A stretch of 21,920 nucleotides of DNA from a virus. This document shows positions 130 through 10,881 of this stretch, piece by piece. The notes below the pieces were generated by a model. The model was not told the origin of the DNA. It made no database searches and saw only the letters and a program-made list of their open reading frames with translations. How positions within the stretch are numbered: the first letter of the stretch is position 1; each line of letters opens with the position of its first letter. Both the position numbers and the translations under genes were made by a program. Location of the stretch: positions 1 through 21,920 of IMG/VR virus record IMGVR_UViG_3300048686_000566; one strand, given 5' to 3'.

Positions 130-159
130 CTAGTTGCCTCGAATTAGTTGCTCTTGCAT
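130..159 (-). CDS. Terminal, truncated unit of the Gly-X array (9 aa)
   Basis: This is a seventh copy of the unit start, with the same upstream AGAGGATATAGT ribosome-binding segment. It reads MQEQLIRGN and then stops at TAG before any Gly-X repeat. It overlaps the end of the 144-455 gene by 16 nt, exactly like the full units. It is either a decayed unit or the start of a former full gene whose remnant lies at 49-129. The peptide itself is probably not functional. Confidence 0.35.
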   Translation of the reverse strand: MQEQLIRGN

Positions 160-455
160 ACTATATCCTCTTCTCCATAGCCATAGCAATAGCCGTAGCC
201 AGAGCCATCTCCATCGCCATCTCCATCGCCATCTCCATCGCCATAGCCATCTCCGTCGCCATAGCCATATCCAGAGCCATAGCCATCTCCATAGCCACAG
301 CCAAAGCCATAGCCATCTCCGTCGCCATAGCCATATCCAGAGCCATCGCCATCTCCATAGCCACAGCCAAAGCCAAAGCCATAGCCATCGCCATAGCCAT
401 AGCCACAGCCACAGCCGTCGCGGATCATTTCGCCACGAATTAGTTGCTCTTGCAT
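144..455 (-). CDS. Gly-X repeat protein, array unit 6
   Basis: A 103-residue protein: leader MQEQLIRGEMIRDG, about 80 residues of strict Gly-X alternation (X mostly Y, D, S, F or C), and tail EEDIVCKSN. The start is chosen because AGAGGA lies 6 nt upstream of the ATG and the same leader begins the other units. Third positions of the Gly codons vary (GGC, GGA) while Gly is kept, which supports this frame over the other open frames of the repeat. It has no signal peptide or membrane segment. I do not recognise the function; by composition it could be a surface or structural filament, a condensate-forming protein or an adhesin. Confidence 0.6.
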   Translation of the reverse strand: MQEQLIRGEMIRDGCGCGYGYGDGYGFGFGCGYGDGDGSGYGYGDGDGYGFGCGYGDGYGSGYGYGDGDGYGDGDGDGDGDGDGSGYGYCYGYGEEDIVCKSN

Positions 456-532
456 ACTATATCCTCTTCTCCATCGCCATAGCCATCGCCATAGCCCTCA
501 CCATTTTTAGTCATTTTACCTCGAATGAGCAT
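440..532 (-). CDS. Mini Gly-X unit of the array, unit 5 (30 aa)
   Basis: A 30-residue unit whose leader MLIRGKMTKNG is a shortened form of the common one. It is followed by only about four Gly-X dipeptides and the standard tail EEDIVCKSN. The ribosome-binding segment AGAGGATAT precedes the ATG. It overlaps the preceding unit by 22 nt and the next by 16 nt. It looks like a unit that lost most of its hexanucleotide repeats by slippage or recombination while keeping both junctions, so the frame and coupling are intact. Confidence 0.5.
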   Translation of the reverse strand: MLIRGKMTKNGEGYGDGYGDGEEDIVCKSN

Positions 533-825
533 ATATCCTCTTTTCCATAGCCAGAGCCAAAGCCACGGCCATAGCCAGAGCCACGGCCATAGCCAGAGCC
601 ATAGCCAGAGCCACAGCCGTAGCCGTGACCATAGCCATAGCCATCGCCATAGCCAGAGCCAGAGCCGTAGCCTTCGCCAAAACCAAAGCCATAGCAATAG
701 CCATAGCCATCGCCAGAGCCATAGCCATCTCCATCGCCATAGCCATAGCCATAGCCGTCGCCATAGCCATAGCCATAGCCATAGCCGTCGCGGATCATTT
801 CGCCACGAATTAGTTGCTCTTGCAT
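511..825 (-). CDS. Gly-X repeat protein, array unit 4
   Basis: A 104-residue protein with leader MQEQLIRGEMIRDG and a long Gly-X tract (GY, GD, GS, plus GF, GE, GH, GC and GR). Its tail GKEDICSFEVK differs from the other units because the next unit has a different start region. The stop TGA at 511-513 lies inside the start region of the 440-532 unit. AGAGGATATAGT precedes the ATG. Same unknown function as the other units. Confidence 0.6.
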   Translation of the reverse strand: MQEQLIRGEMIRDGYGYGYGYGDGYGYGYGDGDGYGSGDGYGYCYGFGFGEGYGSGSGYGDGYGYGHGYGCGSGYGSGYGRGSGYGRGFGSGYGKEDICSFEVK

Positions 826-1109
826 ACTATATCCTTCTCTGCATCGACATCGCCATCGCCAAAGCCACGGCCATCGCCATAGCCACGGCCATAGCCAGAG
901 CCAGAGCCATAGCCACAGCCGTAGCCGTGGTCATAGACAGAGCCATAGCCATCGCCATAGCCATAGCCATAGCCATAGCAATAGCCATAGCCAGAGCCAG
1001 AGCCATAGCCATCTCCATCGCCATAGCCATAGCCAAAGCCAGAGCCATCGCCATAGCCATATCCGTCGCCTTTGCGACTCATTTTGCCACGGATCAGTTG
1101 CTCTTGCAT
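810..1109 (-). CDS. Gly-X repeat protein, array unit 3
   Basis: A 99-residue unit with leader MQEQLIRGKMSRKG, a Gly-X tract and a tail ending KDIVCKSN. The Shine-Dalgarno segment before the ATG is AGGATATAGT. Its leader is encoded with CTG ATC, where units 2, 4 and 6 use CTA ATT. That change is silent here and also keeps a stop codon (TGA for TAA) for the gene upstream. Two odd dipeptides (GSVYDHGYG) break the strict alternation near the middle. No known domain. Confidence 0.6.
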   Translation of the reverse strand: MQEQLIRGKMSRKGDGYGYGDGSGFGYGYGDGDGYGSGSGYGYCYGYGYGYGDGYGSVYDHGYGCGYGSGSGYGRGYGDGRGFGDGDVDAEKDIVCKSN

Positions 1110-1363
1110 ACTATATCCTGCTCTGCATCGCCATCGCCATCGCCAAAGCCACGGCCATAGCCATCGCCATAGCCATCTCCGTCGCCATAGCCACAGCCAT
1201 AGCCATAGCCATAGCCAGAGCCATAGCCATAGCCATAGCCCAAGCCATCGCCATAGCCATAGCCATAGCCAGAGCTATAGCCACGGCCATAACCATAGCC
1301 ATAGCAATAGCCATAGCCATCGCCTTTACGGCTCATTTCGCCACGAATTAGTTGCTCTTGCAT
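1094..1363 (-). CDS. Gly-X repeat protein, array unit 2
   Basis: An 89-residue unit with leader MQEQLIRGEMSRKG, then a Gly-Tyr-dominated tract and a tail ending QDIVCKSN. It ends with TGA at 1094-1096, inside the next unit's start region. AAGGATATAGT precedes the ATG. It is the unit richest in tyrosine, so if the protein assembles through aromatic stacking or Tyr cross-linking it should be informative. Function unknown. Confidence 0.6.
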   Translation of the reverse strand: MQEQLIRGEMSRKGDGYGYCYGYGYGRGYSSGYGYGYGDGLGYGYGYGSGYGYGYGCGYGDGDGYGDGYGRGFGDGDGDAEQDIVCKSN

Positions 1364-1632
1364 ACTATATCCTTTTCTCCATCGCCATAGCCATCGCCAT
1401 AGCCATCGCCATCGCTATCGCCATCGCCATCGCTATCGCCAAAGCCATAGCCGTCGCCAAAGCCATAGCCAGAGCCAGAGCCATCTCGATCGCCATAGCC
1501 ATAGCCATCGCCAAAGCCATCTCCATCGCCATAGCCATCTCCATCGCCATAGCCATCTCCATCGCCATAGCCATAGCCGTCGCCAAAACCATAGCCAGAG
1601 CCAGAGCCAAAGCCATAGCCTTCACGGCTCAT
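1348..1632 (-). CDS. Gly-X repeat protein, array unit 1 (start uncertain)
   Basis: The first Gly-X tract of the array, directly after the DUF6948 gene. It ends with the common tail KDIVCKSN. Its frame is open upstream to a GTG at 1693-1695, but the segment LEQLIRGEM matches the leader of the other units without their start MQ. The annotated start is the ATG at 1630-1632, 12 nt downstream of the DUF6948 stop, so reinitiation is likely. A -1 frameshift near the end of DUF6948 would also put ribosomes in this frame. Start choice is uncertain; the Gly-X frame is well supported. Confidence 0.5.
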   Translation of the reverse strand: MSREGYGFGSGSGYGFGDGYGYGDGDGYGDGDGYGDGDGFGDGYGYGDRDGSGSGYGFGDGYGFGDSDGDGDSDGDGYGDGYGDGEKDIVCKSN

Positions 1633-1643
1633 CTCGCCACGGA

Positions 1644-1952
1644 TCAGTTGCTCCAAGGAGCCTTTTCCCAAGCAGCAACAGCAGCATCGCTGCACAGCGC
1701 GACTGCGGTCACGTTGCGGACGACGATATCCGCCTTAGGCCCGATACGGCATCCGCTCGACGGACCAGTCGCTGCGAGACCAAAGCAGCCCTTGACGTCG
1801 GCACTCCAGTAAATGCACATTCGTGCATCCTTGAGCGTGATCGTGTCGCCGCTGTAGTCCTTCGTGTAACCGAAGAAAACGCCCCTGTGTGACGTGGTAA
1901 TGATAACGGGAACCATCTTGTTAACTGCCTTCTTAACGATTTTCTTAGCCAT
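1644..1952 (-). CDS. DUF6948-type phage protein
   Basis: A 102-residue protein. After a Lys-rich start (MAKKIVKKAV) it has the pattern I associate with DUF6948: RGVFFGYT, a run ending ARMCIYWSADVKGCFGLA, TGPSSGCRIGP, a TAVAL strand and the ending AVAAWEKAPW. The role of the family is unknown to me; it is common in phages. The start is supported by AAAAAGGATTTAAAC before the ATG. Its last codons overlap the frame that continues into the Gly-X array, so it is translationally linked to the array and may form an N-terminal partner or fusion with it. Confidence 0.7.
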   Translation of the reverse strand: MAKKIVKKAVNKMVPVIITTSHRGVFFGYTKDYSGDTITLKDARMCIYWSADVKGCFGLAATGPSSGCRIGPKADIVVRNVTAVALCSDAAVAAWEKAPWSN

Positions 1953-8531: not shown

Positions 8532-8621
8532 TGGTGCTGATGGTAGGAGTCGAGCCTACGGGGTCAATTTAATAACAACAGATTTACAGTCTGCTCCCGC
8601 CCCCTACGGGTCTACATCAGC
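8532..8621 (-). tRNA. tRNA-Tyr (anticodon GTA)
   Basis: A type II tRNA with acceptor GCTGATG/CATCAGC, anticodon loop CTGTAAA (GTA), a long variable arm, T-loop and encoded CCA. Its first 10 nt contain the stop codon of the HNH gene just upstream. Confidence 0.9.
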
Positions 8622-9052
8622 TTATAATATCGTAATCTTTTTTTATTTGCTTTGCCTTTGTTTAGAGCTTTATATGTGCTAGTGAGCGCATGGCAATTAG
8701 GACATAATACTCTAAGATTTTCTGGTCTGTTATTTGTGCTATCACCATCAATGTGATCTATCTCTAAGGGACTCCTGTTGGTAACTGGATTAATTTTATT
8801 CCAACCACATTGAATACATTTGTGATCTGCTTGTTCTAATAAGTAAGTTCTTATTGAATTTGATAGTTGATTTCCGTTATTTTTTGTGCCATCAAAAGTC
8901 CCCGATTTCCAATTATTAACTTTTTGATCGCTCTGGTACTTTTGTTGACACTTTACAGAACAATATTTCCCCTTTTGAGCAGTTTGTAAGTATTCAAACT
9001 TAATATTGCAAAATTTACAAAGTGATTCTTTTCTTTTTTTTGGATTTGACAT
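8612..9052 (-). CDS. HNH homing endonuclease (free-standing)
   Basis: A 146-residue protein from the ATG at 9050-9052 (upstream in-frame ATGs exist at 9070 and 9094). Domains in order: a zinc finger with C12xxC15 and C31xxxC35 (a MazF-antidote/HNH-associated type), a linker, then C79xxC82 and the HNH core: D99-H100 (EIDHIDGD), N residues after it, and C117xxC120-H121. It cuts DNA and promotes its own spread; its position between tRNA-Lys and tRNA-Tyr, with the stop codon inside tRNA-Tyr, suggests a tRNA-linked target. Two copies of AGATCTACTAT lie just upstream, one touching the start codon. Confidence 0.85.
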   Translation of the reverse strand: MSNPKKRKESLCKFCNIKFEYLQTAQKGKYCSVKCQQKYQSDQKVNNWKSGTFDGTKNNGNQLSNSIRTYLLEQADHKCIQCGWNKINPVTNRSPLEIDHIDGDSTNNRPENLRVLCPNCHALTSTYKALNKGKANKKRLRYYKLM

Positions 9053-9094
9053 AGTAGATCTCTTATACATATATATAGTAGATCTAGAGTTCAA
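9048..9094 (-). repeat. Direct repeat AGATCTACTAT upstream of the HNH gene, with weak promoter-like boxes
   Basis: The 11-mer AGATCTACTAT occurs twice within about 40 nt, the second copy ending at the ATG of the HNH gene. TTGAAC (9094-9089) followed 15 nt later by TATATG could serve as a weak promoter. The repeat encodes RST twice in the longer reading frame, so a short tandem duplication of the start region is the simplest origin. Confidence 0.35.
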
Positions 9095-9114
9095 TTTTAA
9101 AAGAAATTTTAAGT

Positions 9115-9188
9115 TGGTGACTCCACCGAGACTCGAACTCGGATAGACTGGTTAAAAGCCAGATATTCTGCCATTGAATTATGGAGTC
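9115..9188 (-). tRNA. tRNA-Lys (anticodon TTT)
   Basis: Acceptor GACTCCA/TGGAGTC, anticodon loop CTTTTAA (TTT), T-arm with GTTCGAG and encoded CCA. The outermost pair of the anticodon stem is a T-T mismatch. Confidence 0.88.
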
Positions 9189-9194
9189 ATGTAA

Positions 9195-9271
9195 TGGTAT
9201 CCCCAGAAGGAATCGAACCTTCAACCTGATGATTAGAAATCATCTGCTCTTTCCTGTTGAGCTATGGGGAC
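9195..9271 (-). tRNA. tRNA-Arg (anticodon TCT)
   Basis: Acceptor GTCCCCA/TGGGGAT (G-U first pair), anticodon stem GATGA/TCATC with loop TTTCTAA (TCT, reading AGA/AGG), T-loop GTTCGAT and encoded CCA. It follows a terminator-like hairpin within 4 nt. Confidence 0.9.
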
Positions 9272-9274
9272 TTG

Positions 9275-9303
9275 AAAAAAACCACAGGCTGTTATACCCG
9301 TGG
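9275..9303 (-). terminator. Rho-independent terminator-like hairpin between tRNA-Leu and tRNA-Arg
   Basis: On the minus strand CCACGGG (9303-9297), loop, CCTGTGG (9288-9282), then seven T (9281-9275). A 7-bp stem with one G-U pair. It would end or attenuate transcription just before tRNA-Arg, or be the 3' end of a small RNA. Confidence 0.6.
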
Positions 9304-9345
9304 CTCGGGAGGAACCTCCCCGACCACCATTCAAGAGGTGAATGG
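9301..9345 (-). ncRNA. Two further stem-loops 3' of tRNA-Leu
   Basis: Downstream of tRNA-Leu: CCATTCA/TGAATGG at 9345-9327 (7 bp perfect, 5-nt loop), then a GC-rich hairpin at about 9326-9301 around GGAGGTTCCTCC. With the terminator at 9275-9303 this makes three consecutive stems in about 70 nt, with no protein-coding frame. Could be a small RNA or a tRNA-processing spacer. Confidence 0.4.
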
Positions 9346-9405
9346 ATCGTTGTTTGGTAGGGATGGCGGGAATCGAACCCGCACGCCTTAGGGGCTTCAG
9401 ATTTT

Positions 9406-10084
9406 CTTACTACTTCGGCTTTCACCGCTGCTATATACCTAAAGGGTACACGCATTTGTAGTCTGGACTATGCCTTTGCCTTTCCTAGTTACAGGAGTCA
9501 GGCACTAACCGTCTAGTCTCTACACACATTACATTATTATGAAATATAAATACACCATTGAACAACTTAAAGAAGCTATAACAACTAGCAATTCTATTCG
9601 TGAAGTTTTAATGAGGCTTAATATCATTCCAGCAGGAGGGAATTATGCTACATTAAAAAAACAAATTAAGCTGCACAAATTAGATATATCACACTTCAAA
9701 GGCAAATCTTGGAACAAGAATAGAAAATTTGGACATAAACGTCCTATTGCATCTTATTTATGTAATCAATTCTCTATAACATCTCATCGTCTACGTCAAA
9801 GACTAATTCAAGAAGGTTTATTCAAACCTCAATGCTCAAATTGCAATCTTAAGAGTTGGTTAGGTAAAAATATACCTCTAGAATTAGATCATATTGACGG
9901 AGATCATGAGAATAATAATCTTTGTAACTTAAGATTACTTTGTCCAAATTGCCATGCTCTTACACCTAATTATAGGGGTAAAAACATAAAAATGTAATTT
10001 GGCTCGGCGTTGCCATGTTAAAGGTTTCACCGAATTTGGTTAGTTCTCAGTAAAGGATTTCTCCTTTATGACTCATATAGTTAA
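9406..10084 (-). ncRNA. Group I intron (679 nt) in tRNA-Leu(UAA)
   Basis: P1: exon GACTT pairs with intron GAGTC, giving a U-G pair at the 5' splice site. P2: AAAGGA-GAAA-TCCTTT. P3/P4/P5: GGTGAAACC, then GGCAACGCCGAGCC (10014-10001), matching the P/Q elements of cyanobacterial tRNA-Leu introns. P7: GAGACTAGACGG (R, about 9520-9509) and AGGCATAGTCC (S). The last intron base is G. All core elements seem intact, so it should self-splice. An HNH gene on the opposite strand (9539-9997) fills the P6 region; without it the intron would be about 220 nt. Confidence 0.85.
9539..9997 (+). CDS. HNH endonuclease gene inside the intron, antisense to it
   Basis: A 152-residue HNH endonuclease. The N-terminal ~95 residues include helices (TIEQLKEAITTSNSIREVLMRL) of the helix-turn-helix type used to bind the target; the C-terminal part has C99xxC102, ELDHIDGD (D117-H118), N residues, and C135xxC138-H139 (LLCPNCHALT). 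It lies between the P4/P5 and P7 elements of the intron but on the opposite strand, so it must be transcribed against the tRNA. No Shine-Dalgarno site or clear promoter precedes the ATG. The CPNCHALT segment is shared with the HNH at 8612-9052, but the N-termini differ. Confidence 0.85.
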   Translation: MKYKYTIEQLKEAITTSNSIREVLMRLNIIPAGGNYATLKKQIKLHKLDISHFKGKSWNKNRKFGHKRPIASYLCNQFSITSHRLRQRLIQEGLFKPQCSNCNLKSWLGKNIPLELDHIDGDHENNNLCNLRLLCPNCHALTPNYRGKNIKM

Positions 10085-10119
10085 AAGTCTGATGTGTCTG
10101 CCTATTCCACCACATCCCC

Positions 10120-10330
10120 GTTATTTTAAAGAGCTAAGTTGCAATTTTAGTTTAACGCACGCAACGAAACATAATGGATAAATTGCAAAAACCCCCAACA
10201 TAGCCACCTCTGTTCTTAACGTCCATCGGGCGAATGGTACTCGGACGTTTTCAGCTATGTCAAACGCTTGCTGTAGCCGCAGCGATAAAAAATGTACGCC
10301 ATCGTTGACACTCAACAACGTACTCGCATT
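10120..10330. other. Structured intergenic segment between tRNA-Asn and tRNA-Leu
   Basis: No convincing gene. The segment has nested perfect inverted repeats: acatagc (10198-10204)/gctatgt (10254-10260) enclosing aacgtcc (10218-10224)/ggacgtt (10243-10249), then on the minus strand GGGGG and five T, and another pair ttgcaattt (10139-10147)/aaattgcaa (10180-10188). This looks like a structured RNA. A 65-codon minus frame from a TTG (10121-10318) includes PLCFVACVKLK, and another frame reads YIFYRCGYSKRLT. Both remind me of translated peptides from the leader/immunity (ash/kil) regions of P4-like satellites and Pasteurellaceae prophages; I cannot verify this. Confidence 0.35.
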
Positions 10331-10405
10331 TGGCTCCTCGGGTAGGGCTCGAACCTACAACCAATCGGTTAACAGCCGATTGCTCTACCATTGAGCTACC
10401 GAGGA
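10331..10405 (-). tRNA. tRNA-Asn (anticodon GTT)
   Basis: Acceptor TCCTCGG/CCGAGGA, anticodon stem ATCGG/CCGAT with loop CTGTTAA (GTT), T-arm TGTAGG TTCGAGC CCTAC, discriminator G and encoded CCA. Confidence 0.9.
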
Positions 10406-10413
10406 ACCTTCAA

Positions 10414-10650
10414 TCACAGAGTAGTATCATTCTTCCAGAAACCACCCTCAGGCTCAATCTCATCCGTAAGTCCGAGGATAACCTTGAGTTCGTTAGCAGT
10501 ATCAACAAGCTCATTACGTCGATTGATGATATTCTCACGTTGAGCATCAATTTGAGAAAGAGCATTATCCATCTGCTTAATACCTTGTTCAGCACCTTCG
10601 AGCATCTGAGCAAGGAACTTATCACGCTTGTCAACAGTCTTTTCAGTCAT
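10414..10650 (-). CDS. Small coiled-coil protein between tRNA genes
   Basis: A 78-residue protein MTEKTVDKRDK.... The ATG at 10648-10650 is preceded by AGAAAGGATATAATT. It is mostly one long helix (residues about 5-60, KFLAQMLEGAEQGIKQMDNALSQIDAQRENI..., heptad-like), with an acidic tail and GGFWKNDTTL. It lies between tRNA-Ile and tRNA-Asn and its stop ends 8 nt before tRNA-Asn. No known family. The plus-strand frame reading through here (MAPRVGLEPTTN...) is a tRNA shadow. Confidence 0.6.
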   Translation of the reverse strand: MTEKTVDKRDKFLAQMLEGAEQGIKQMDNALSQIDAQRENIINRRNELVDTANELKVILGLTDEIEPEGGFWKNDTTL

Positions 10651-10677
10651 AATTATATCCTTTCTGATATATTGTTT

Positions 10678-10754
10678 TGGTACGCCTACTTGGACTTGAA
10701 CCAAGAACCTACCGCTTATAAGACGGCAACTCTAACCGATTGAGCTATAGGCGC
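10678..10754 (-). tRNA. tRNA-Ile (anticodon TAT)
   Basis: Acceptor GCGCCTA/TAGGCGT (G-U first pair), anticodon loop CTTATAA (TAT, reading AUA), T-arm CTTGG TTCAAGT CCAAG, discriminator A and encoded CCA. AUA is rare in many bacteria, so this tRNA would serve the AT-rich phage genes. Confidence 0.88.
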
Positions 10755-10806
10755 GTTGTTCTATAGATTATAGTCGCTGATAAGCTGGATTTTATTTATT
10801 TTCTTG

Positions 10807-10881
10807 TGGAGCGGAAAACGGGACTCGAACCCGCAACAGTCAGCTTGGAAGGCTGAAACTCTACCATTGAGTTATTTCCGC
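10807..10881 (-). tRNA. tRNA-Gly (anticodon TCC)
   Basis: Acceptor GCGGAAA/TTTCCGC, anticodon stem TCAGC/GCTGA with loop CTTCCAA (TCC), T-arm GCGGG TTCGAGT CCCGT, discriminator T and encoded CCA. Its first 10 nt contain the stop codon of the gene at 10872-11141. Confidence 0.9.

Follow-up and report, generated by a model that had tools for sequence, protein, structure and literature searches.

The locus described here bears comparison with several known systems. Some LSm proteins work with disordered low-complexity tails, and published abstracts describe a disordered C-terminal domain in Hfq. According to excerpts from two published accounts, Gly-rich helical bundles make the adhesin tip in some T-even phages (PMC8409303), and GGT-TAT hexamer repeats act as variable sequence in bovine IGHD8-2 (PMC7366855). 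We analysed a viral DNA stretch of 21,920 nucleotides (nt), henceforth the window (IMG/VR record IMGVR_UViG_3300048686_000566, positions 1 to 21,920), in which a gene of the DUF6948 family is followed by a tandem array of overlapping genes for Gly-X dipeptide-repeat proteins (Gly-X genes). In the literature that we searched (most subscription journals lie outside it), no paper names DUF6948 or DUF7666 (a family discussed below), and we found no description of a DUF6948-Gly-X module or of its coupling. Our comparison with relatives indicates that the array is an enlarged form of a widespread, apparently undescribed and putatively coupled gene pair.

Read along the minus strand from 1952 to 130, the window contains the DUF6948 gene, then six Gly-X genes and then a stub, as follows:

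1644..1952, minus strand: DUF6948 gene (PF22253), first in the putatively coupled module, with a predicted Sm/LSm-like beta-barrel (Pfam, AlphaFold2, Foldseek, VIA)
1348..1656, minus strand: Gly-X unit 1, 102 codons plus the stop codon, with a probable TTG start in the DUF6948 Pro-Trp codons and a 13-nt overlap (translation; homologous start in relatives)
1094..1363, minus strand: Gly-X unit 2, 89 amino acids, 16-nt overlap with unit 1 (list of open reading frames, ORFs)
810..1109, minus strand: Gly-X unit 3, 99 amino acids, 16-nt overlap (ORF list)
511..825, minus strand: Gly-X unit 4, 104 amino acids, 16-nt overlap, divergent tail KEDICSFEVK (ORF list)
440..532, minus strand: Gly-X unit 5, shortened, 30 amino acids, 22-nt overlap (translation)
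144..455, minus strand: Gly-X unit 6, 103 amino acids, 16-nt overlap (ORF list)
130..159, minus strand: stub of a seventh unit, MQEQLIRGN then stop (translation; comparison with a near-identical contig)

The original prediction, made from the sequence of the window, had six units and a truncated one on the minus strand, and the ORFs, the translations and Tandem Repeats Finder (a single period-6 array at 175-1620, score 717) bear this out. It had also placed each stop 16-22 nt inside the next gene; we measured overlaps between successive units, including the stub, of 16, 16, 16, 22, 16 and 16 nt, while the DUF6948 stop codon (1646..1644) lies 13 nt within unit 1. The start/stop layout suited to coupled reinitiation is thus present, and it is kept in relatives. 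By contrast, the proposed opening of the first unit at 1695 (an upstream GTG in the same frame) is less likely than TTG 1656, because the homologous start in relatives sits there. The DNA of the tail (E-E-D-I-V-C) holds GAAGAGGATATAGTATG, i.e., the Shine-Dalgarno sequence and ATG of the next unit, which is why leader and tail travel together: the conserved 'tail' is the site of the next gene's start signals. In comparison with L005 (L-numbers such as L002 or L008 denote relative loci or contigs fetched from viral and genome data), nine added bases simultaneously give QEQ in the leader and KSN in the tail. Because the hexamer seldom makes stops in several frames, other frames across the array are also open over long ORFs of AM, HS and AI type; the Gly-X frame is marked out by leaders, start codons and conservation in relatives rather than by its openness. 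Elsewhere in the window, six minus-strand tRNA genes (8532-10881; Tyr, Lys, Arg, Asn, Ile and Gly) include Gly-TCC and Tyr-GTA, which correspond to the two residues commonest in the array. We set aside the scans for promoters, which came out near chance level, and for terminators, which gave 4 candidate sites where the mean was 1.6; two of the 4 fall within minus-strand tracts.

To place the array among its relatives, we fetched DUF6948 relatives from viral and genome contigs and, with our own DUF6948 profile, compiled a set of 116 distinct genes with at least 250 nt downstream, leaving out loci recruited by the Gly-X pattern. A Gly-X tract was found within 900 nt downstream of all 116 genes and within 300 nt of 112 of them, compared with 1 of 512 stops of other ORFs from these loci, and the Gly-X frame was kept, as the original prediction requires. 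Among stretches matched by the Gly-X pattern, 260 of 273 encoded DUF6948. The family itself was rare in genomes, occurring in 3/385, 0/369 and 3/297 of those sampled (each sample includes the genome it centred on). With tblastn, the window DUF6948, the L007 DUF6948 and the C-terminal domain discussed below matched none of 50,697 deposited phage records, and the L007 DUF6948 matched no plasmid record. A module of a constant partner and a hypersimple protein is present in many uncultivated phages.

The usual state of this module, which the original prediction did not foresee, is a single Gly-X gene. Counting pattern-recruited loci as well, we had 121 DUF6948 genes followed by 1,500 nt or more of sequence; 111 of them had a lone Gly-X ORF within 3 kb, and a mechanical count gave two or more in the remaining 10. 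Inspected by eye, overlapping arrays were present in L004, L005/L006 and L008 (both loci), i.e., in the window's clade, and also in L022, while candidate arrays in L042, L331, L308, L127 and L164 appeared uncertain or to be frame echoes. In the tree, L016-L019, which are relatives of the window, group together with support (96/99). Array length varied, with two units in L004 and four plus one in L005; near the latter array is a second low-complexity gene with imperfect hexapeptide-like repeats (VYGYARVFDEAR type; L005:7487-7948). Closest to the window was contig 3300042199_000105 (L002/L008), which was 99.956% identical over 6,816 bp (3 mismatches) and had one additional full unit (L008:8277..8044) ahead of the same 3' flank. 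The predicted change of copy number at the junctions was thereby observed once, with recombination its probable route.

Other loci recruited along the way differ in content. Several Gly-X families without detected DUF6948 (L089, L091, L126, L131, L134-L136, L144 and L154) have leaders like 'RPV' or 'MKYPK' and tails that are often basic (e.g., 'RKRRR'), some in 2-4 copies, and in L105, L110, L115, L127, L147 and L157 the tract is fused to another recurring C-terminal domain ('IDGVPTII...AHGETL'). We dropped L009 and L010, which matched the conserved-tail pattern and had no Gly-X ORF, as well as a 23-residue DUF6948 match in L015, since a Pfam search of that genome found none.

The junction between the two genes was strongly conserved in the set of 116. 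The offset of the Gly-X frame relative to DUF6948 was identical in 107/116 genes, and in 96/116 an open in-frame start codon (GTG in 52, ATG in 38 and TTG in 6) lay across the terminal Pro-Trp codons, with a Shine-Dalgarno core (GGAG, GAGG or AGGA) upstream of 70 of these 96 starts within the Trp-Glu-Lys/Ala codons. These genes thus have the layout of coupled genes, i.e., a downstream start that overlaps the upstream stop and a Shine-Dalgarno sequence inside the upstream gene. Codon choice pointed the same way. Pro-CCC, which would destroy the Gly-X start, was avoided at the overprinted site (1/50 vs 49/182 other Pro codons, p = 2.7e-5), and Glu was encoded there by GAG in 44/50 cases vs 92/165 elsewhere (p = 2.0e-5). 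In a larger set that included pattern-recruited loci, the avoidance of CCC persisted (5/108 vs 76/382, p = 5.6e-5) and the GAG bias was weaker (72/103 vs 229/410, p = 0.01); four of the five CCC cases (L203, L217, L315 and L181, the last being the same contig as L059) have another ATG further on, and the fifth case is L339. A loose leader motif ([LIVM], an optional residue, [RHNQA]G, then P or M) was common without being universal (76/116 leaders). In the structural model of DUF6948 (see below), Ala-Pro-Trp-Ser-Asn follows directly on the last helix, which stops at residue 96; residue 101, the final one and alone in the last reported block, has a predicted local distance difference test score (pLDDT) of 59. 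The end of the protein hence seems to lie at the margin of the fold, which hints, though it is no proof, that the conserved terminus of DUF6948 is retained for its neighbour's start signals. The C-terminus of one protein would then have been clearly shaped by the start of the next gene.

We then considered which positions vary within the tracts. In strict runs of the window (178 units), the X codons were Y 74, D 50, S 21, F 14, C 7, R 5 and E 4, plus L, H and K once each, and the Gly codons were GGC 155, GGA 19 and GGT 4. For a general picture we pooled 290 distinct tracts of at least 12 units from all loci, and found a mean heterozygosity among units of 0.056 at the third base of Gly, 0.469 and 0.377 at the first and second bases of X (X1 and X2), and 0.084 at its third base. 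The third base of Gly was wholly fixed in 210/290 tracts, and variation at X1 and X2 exceeded that at silent positions in 286/290. Furthermore, X began with TA, GA, TC or AA (i.e., Tyr, Asp, Ser or Asn) in 7,696 of 8,231 units (93.5%), and the same codon pattern was found in 56 tracts from loci without detected DUF6948. Synonymous and nonsynonymous change were hence far from equal, as predicted; the direction was the reverse of that foreseen, since the proposed silent variation of Gly codons was minor in the window and silent positions were almost invariant among relatives, with variation sitting at the two bases that choose X. Silent sites are therefore homogenised along the tract while X is kept mixed, which is the opposite of ordinary purifying selection. 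Given that homogenisation alone would erase the mix at X too, we infer that selection maintains it; protein-level selection on a low-complexity sequence could thus be read directly from the opposite behaviour of silent and non-silent positions.

The fixed Gly codon was mostly GGC, with GGG or GGT in other tracts; the latter occur at scattered points of the DUF6948 tree and retain the X mix, and the GGG rows need at least three changes. Within the C-terminal domain that these genes encode, Gly codons were mixed. In mixed-codon tracts (17 hand-chosen loci), the Gly codon was linked to the following X in 9 and to the preceding X in 4, in keeping with the copying of whole Gly-X hexamers. We also asked whether the order of X might be a code and rejected this: the longest internal repeat exceeded that of shuffled tracts (p of 0.05 or less) in 19/63, which fits segment duplication, and the remaining tracts look shuffled. 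Alternative frames were likewise rejected as the gene, as none silences both common X changes (checked by hand) and the C-terminal domain lies in the Gly-X frame.

To gain insight into possible function, we examined predicted folds and neighbouring genes. The window DUF6948 matched PF22253 with an E-value of 1.1e-23 and 83.6 bits (cut-off 27) over positions 3-85 of 85. Its AlphaFold2 model, built from 47 sequences, had a mean pLDDT of 91 and resembled Sm/LSm proteins, including 3by7 (of uncultured origin), both in Foldseek (E 0.009-0.05, probability about 1) and in VIA, where Z-values reached 6.8, under the level of 8 below which caution applies. Of the genes recruited through DUF6948, 66 had 1,200 nt or more of downstream sequence, and in 37 of these a predicted C-terminal domain lay within 1.5 kb. 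Its model (pLDDT 92) resembled viral DUF7666 proteins (E 4.7e-4) and, among solved structures, the rifampin ADP-ribosyltransferase Arr (Z 6.6) and PARPs (Z about 4), suggesting an ADP-ribosyltransferase (ART)-like fold; a plain Foldseek search of the PDB had no hit with an E-value under 1.8, and Pfam, NCBIfam and PHROGs held no family for the domain in the proteins scanned. Matches to PF22807 (TrAA12), above the cut-off in 2/8 relatives, were read as low-complexity matches because the repeat part alone aligns; automatic annotation may mislabel Gly-X proteins by this route. Finally, among 56 neighbouring genes hand-picked from 150 candidates, we identified RecT, Rad52, ERF, gp32, helicase, AAA_24 and nuclease families, with one or two members each.

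Our preferred reading, to which as a whole we give a probability of roughly 45%, combines a coupled module, its expansion into a chain and a multivalent, nucleic-acid-related function. DUF6948 and the Gly-X low-complexity protein would be made together by translational coupling, with the Shine-Dalgarno sequence and start codon of the latter overprinted on the last codons of the former. In the window's clade, a Gly-X gene without the ART-fold domain would have given rise to a series of units, each carrying in its tail the start signals for the unit behind it. Recombination at the near-identical junctions would alter the number of units, tracts would gain and lose entire Gly-X hexamers, and protein-level selection would hold a mixed Tyr/Asp/Ser/(Asn) alphabet at X. 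Early in infection the resulting protein could be a multivalent scaffold, with Tyr 'stickers' in a Gly/Ser/Asp background, which together with the Sm-like protein works on nucleic acid of the phage or of the host and may do so as a condensate. Because of the predicted folds and the neighbouring gene families, we propose with modest confidence that such an early role exists and that the Gly/Tyr/Ser/Asp protein lends multivalency to the Sm-like protein. This composition resembles that of eukaryotic granule proteins. A bolder version, in which an Sm-like protein and 'sticker and spacer' Gly-(Tyr/Asp/Ser/Asn) chains form a ribonucleoprotein (RNP)-like condensate, the tract spells a code of three or four letters that is constantly dealt anew and one clade has evolved a self-coupled, adjustable chain, is doubtful.

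Several observations weigh against the preferred reading. Gly-X tracts need not depend on DUF6948, as 41 of 80 pattern-recruited Gly-X loci had no detected DUF6948, with 12 more at contig edges. The 47-sequence DUF6948 profile found no PDB sequence at E 10, and with a Foldseek E-value of 0.009 at best and Z-values of at most 6.8, the apparent likeness to Sm/LSm proteins is one of predicted fold only. The list of neighbours is scattered and hand-picked, meaning that the label of 'early gene' comes from few cases. Within 1.5 kb we found no C-terminal domain in the Gly-X proteins of the window, L002-L005, L008 or L022, and ten of the 15 close contig pairs considered below have identical tracts. 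The architecture and the conservation of the module are well supported; the function is not.

One alternative is that Gly-X proteins build fibres with a structural or adhesive role, as a polyglycine-II bundle or a silk-like sheet on virions or cell surfaces, with the array raising dosage. Alternating Gly-X is indeed silk-like, arrays increase gene dosage, and the T-even adhesin tips mentioned above offer a phage precedent. We nevertheless regard fibres as unlikely, given that the identified neighbours are mostly not virion genes, no leader resembles a signal peptide (by eye) and many relatives bear a folded ART-like domain. That domain might itself be the main effector, modifying the host, with Gly-X as a linker and domain-less arrays as remnants or competitors. 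Its frequency among DUF6948-recruited genes, its confident model and its resemblance to Arr, PARP and viral DUF7666 proteins speak for this idea, yet it appears improbable: 29 of the 66 genes lack the domain within 1.5 kb, the arrays named above lack it although their starts and tracts are maintained, and Z-values below 8 may reflect a common arrangement only.

To assess how tracts change over short timescales, we aligned close contig pairs (15 usable of 16; L204/L206 gave no kept alignment). Insertions and deletions occurred solely in or at tracts, with none outside: 6 bp in L059/L060, one unit between the window and L002, and 27 units in L118/L140 (where assembly collapse is possible). In-tract substitutions were found in three pairs, namely C/A in L059/L060, A/C in L070/L071 and a Tyr/Ser change in L126/L150. 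All are Tyr/Ser or Asp/Ala exchanges, i.e., A/C at X2, which could be taken to mean that an active mechanism swaps X among Tyr, Asp, Ser and Asn to diversify a recognition tract, much as in the Gly-Tyr repeats of bovine antibody D segments. The concentration of variation at X1 and X2 and the scatter of GGG and GGT tracts with the X mix kept would agree with this. So would contig 3300042199_000105, which in addition to its main locus (L008:8044-10040, minus strand) bears another copy of DUF6948 in inverted orientation, about 5 kb away and with two Gly-X genes of its own (L008:3748-4606, plus strand): the two DUF6948 copies are 98.3% identical over the 300 nt that lead up to the first tract, yet their first tracts differ completely. 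The inverted arms (501 nt, 90% complementary) could support inversion or gene conversion. Still, point differences were not clearly more frequent in tracts than in flanks (1 in 222 nt vs 19 in about 5,900 nt in L126/L150; 1 in 144 nt vs 16 in about 3,950 nt in L059/L060), and we therefore rejected hypermutation. Two of the three substitutions can be explained by unit exchange, as may hold for the Tyr/Ser changes, and the one in L071 lies 28 nt from a contig end. A diversity-generating retroelement was likewise rejected, as reverse transcriptase (PF00078) was found in 0/36 phage records, which may be fragments, while three control genomes matched. Active diversification is thus quite improbable. 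Least probable of all is that the tract is a hexamer satellite, selfish or neutral, which expands through slippage and encodes an inconsequential protein. This would account for low complexity, whole-unit length changes and silent homogeneity, except that neutral turnover would homogenise X too, whereas X is confined to four residues in 93.5% of units over 290 tracts, start signals are conserved and tracts are in frame with a conserved domain.

Compared with known systems, the coupled module favoured here shares single features with each. The gene before the array belongs to DUF6948 (PF22253), whose coupling to Gly-X genes we did not find described in the searched literature. The C-terminal domain of many Gly-X proteins resembles the DUF7666/ART fold (Arr, PARP) in its predicted fold, although library families do not name it and the window units are without it. 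With the Gly-rich polyproline-II bundles of the phage S16 adhesin, as portrayed in the excerpts cited, the likeness is that of a glycine-rich phage protein; here the repeat is a strict Gly-X with Tyr, Asp and Ser, without polyglycine and with no tail-fibre context seen. Likewise, going by the cited excerpts, the bovine IGHD8-2 Gly-Tyr repeats share the hexamer repeat in an unrelated gene, and their hypermutation by AID is without a counterpart shown in the phage module. The Sm/LSm/Hfq small beta-barrel resembles the predicted fold of DUF6948, with no sequence relation detected, and the low-complexity part is a separate gene in the phage module. If this pairing of an Sm-like and a low-complexity protein is functional, it would represent a phage parallel to RNP granule proteins.

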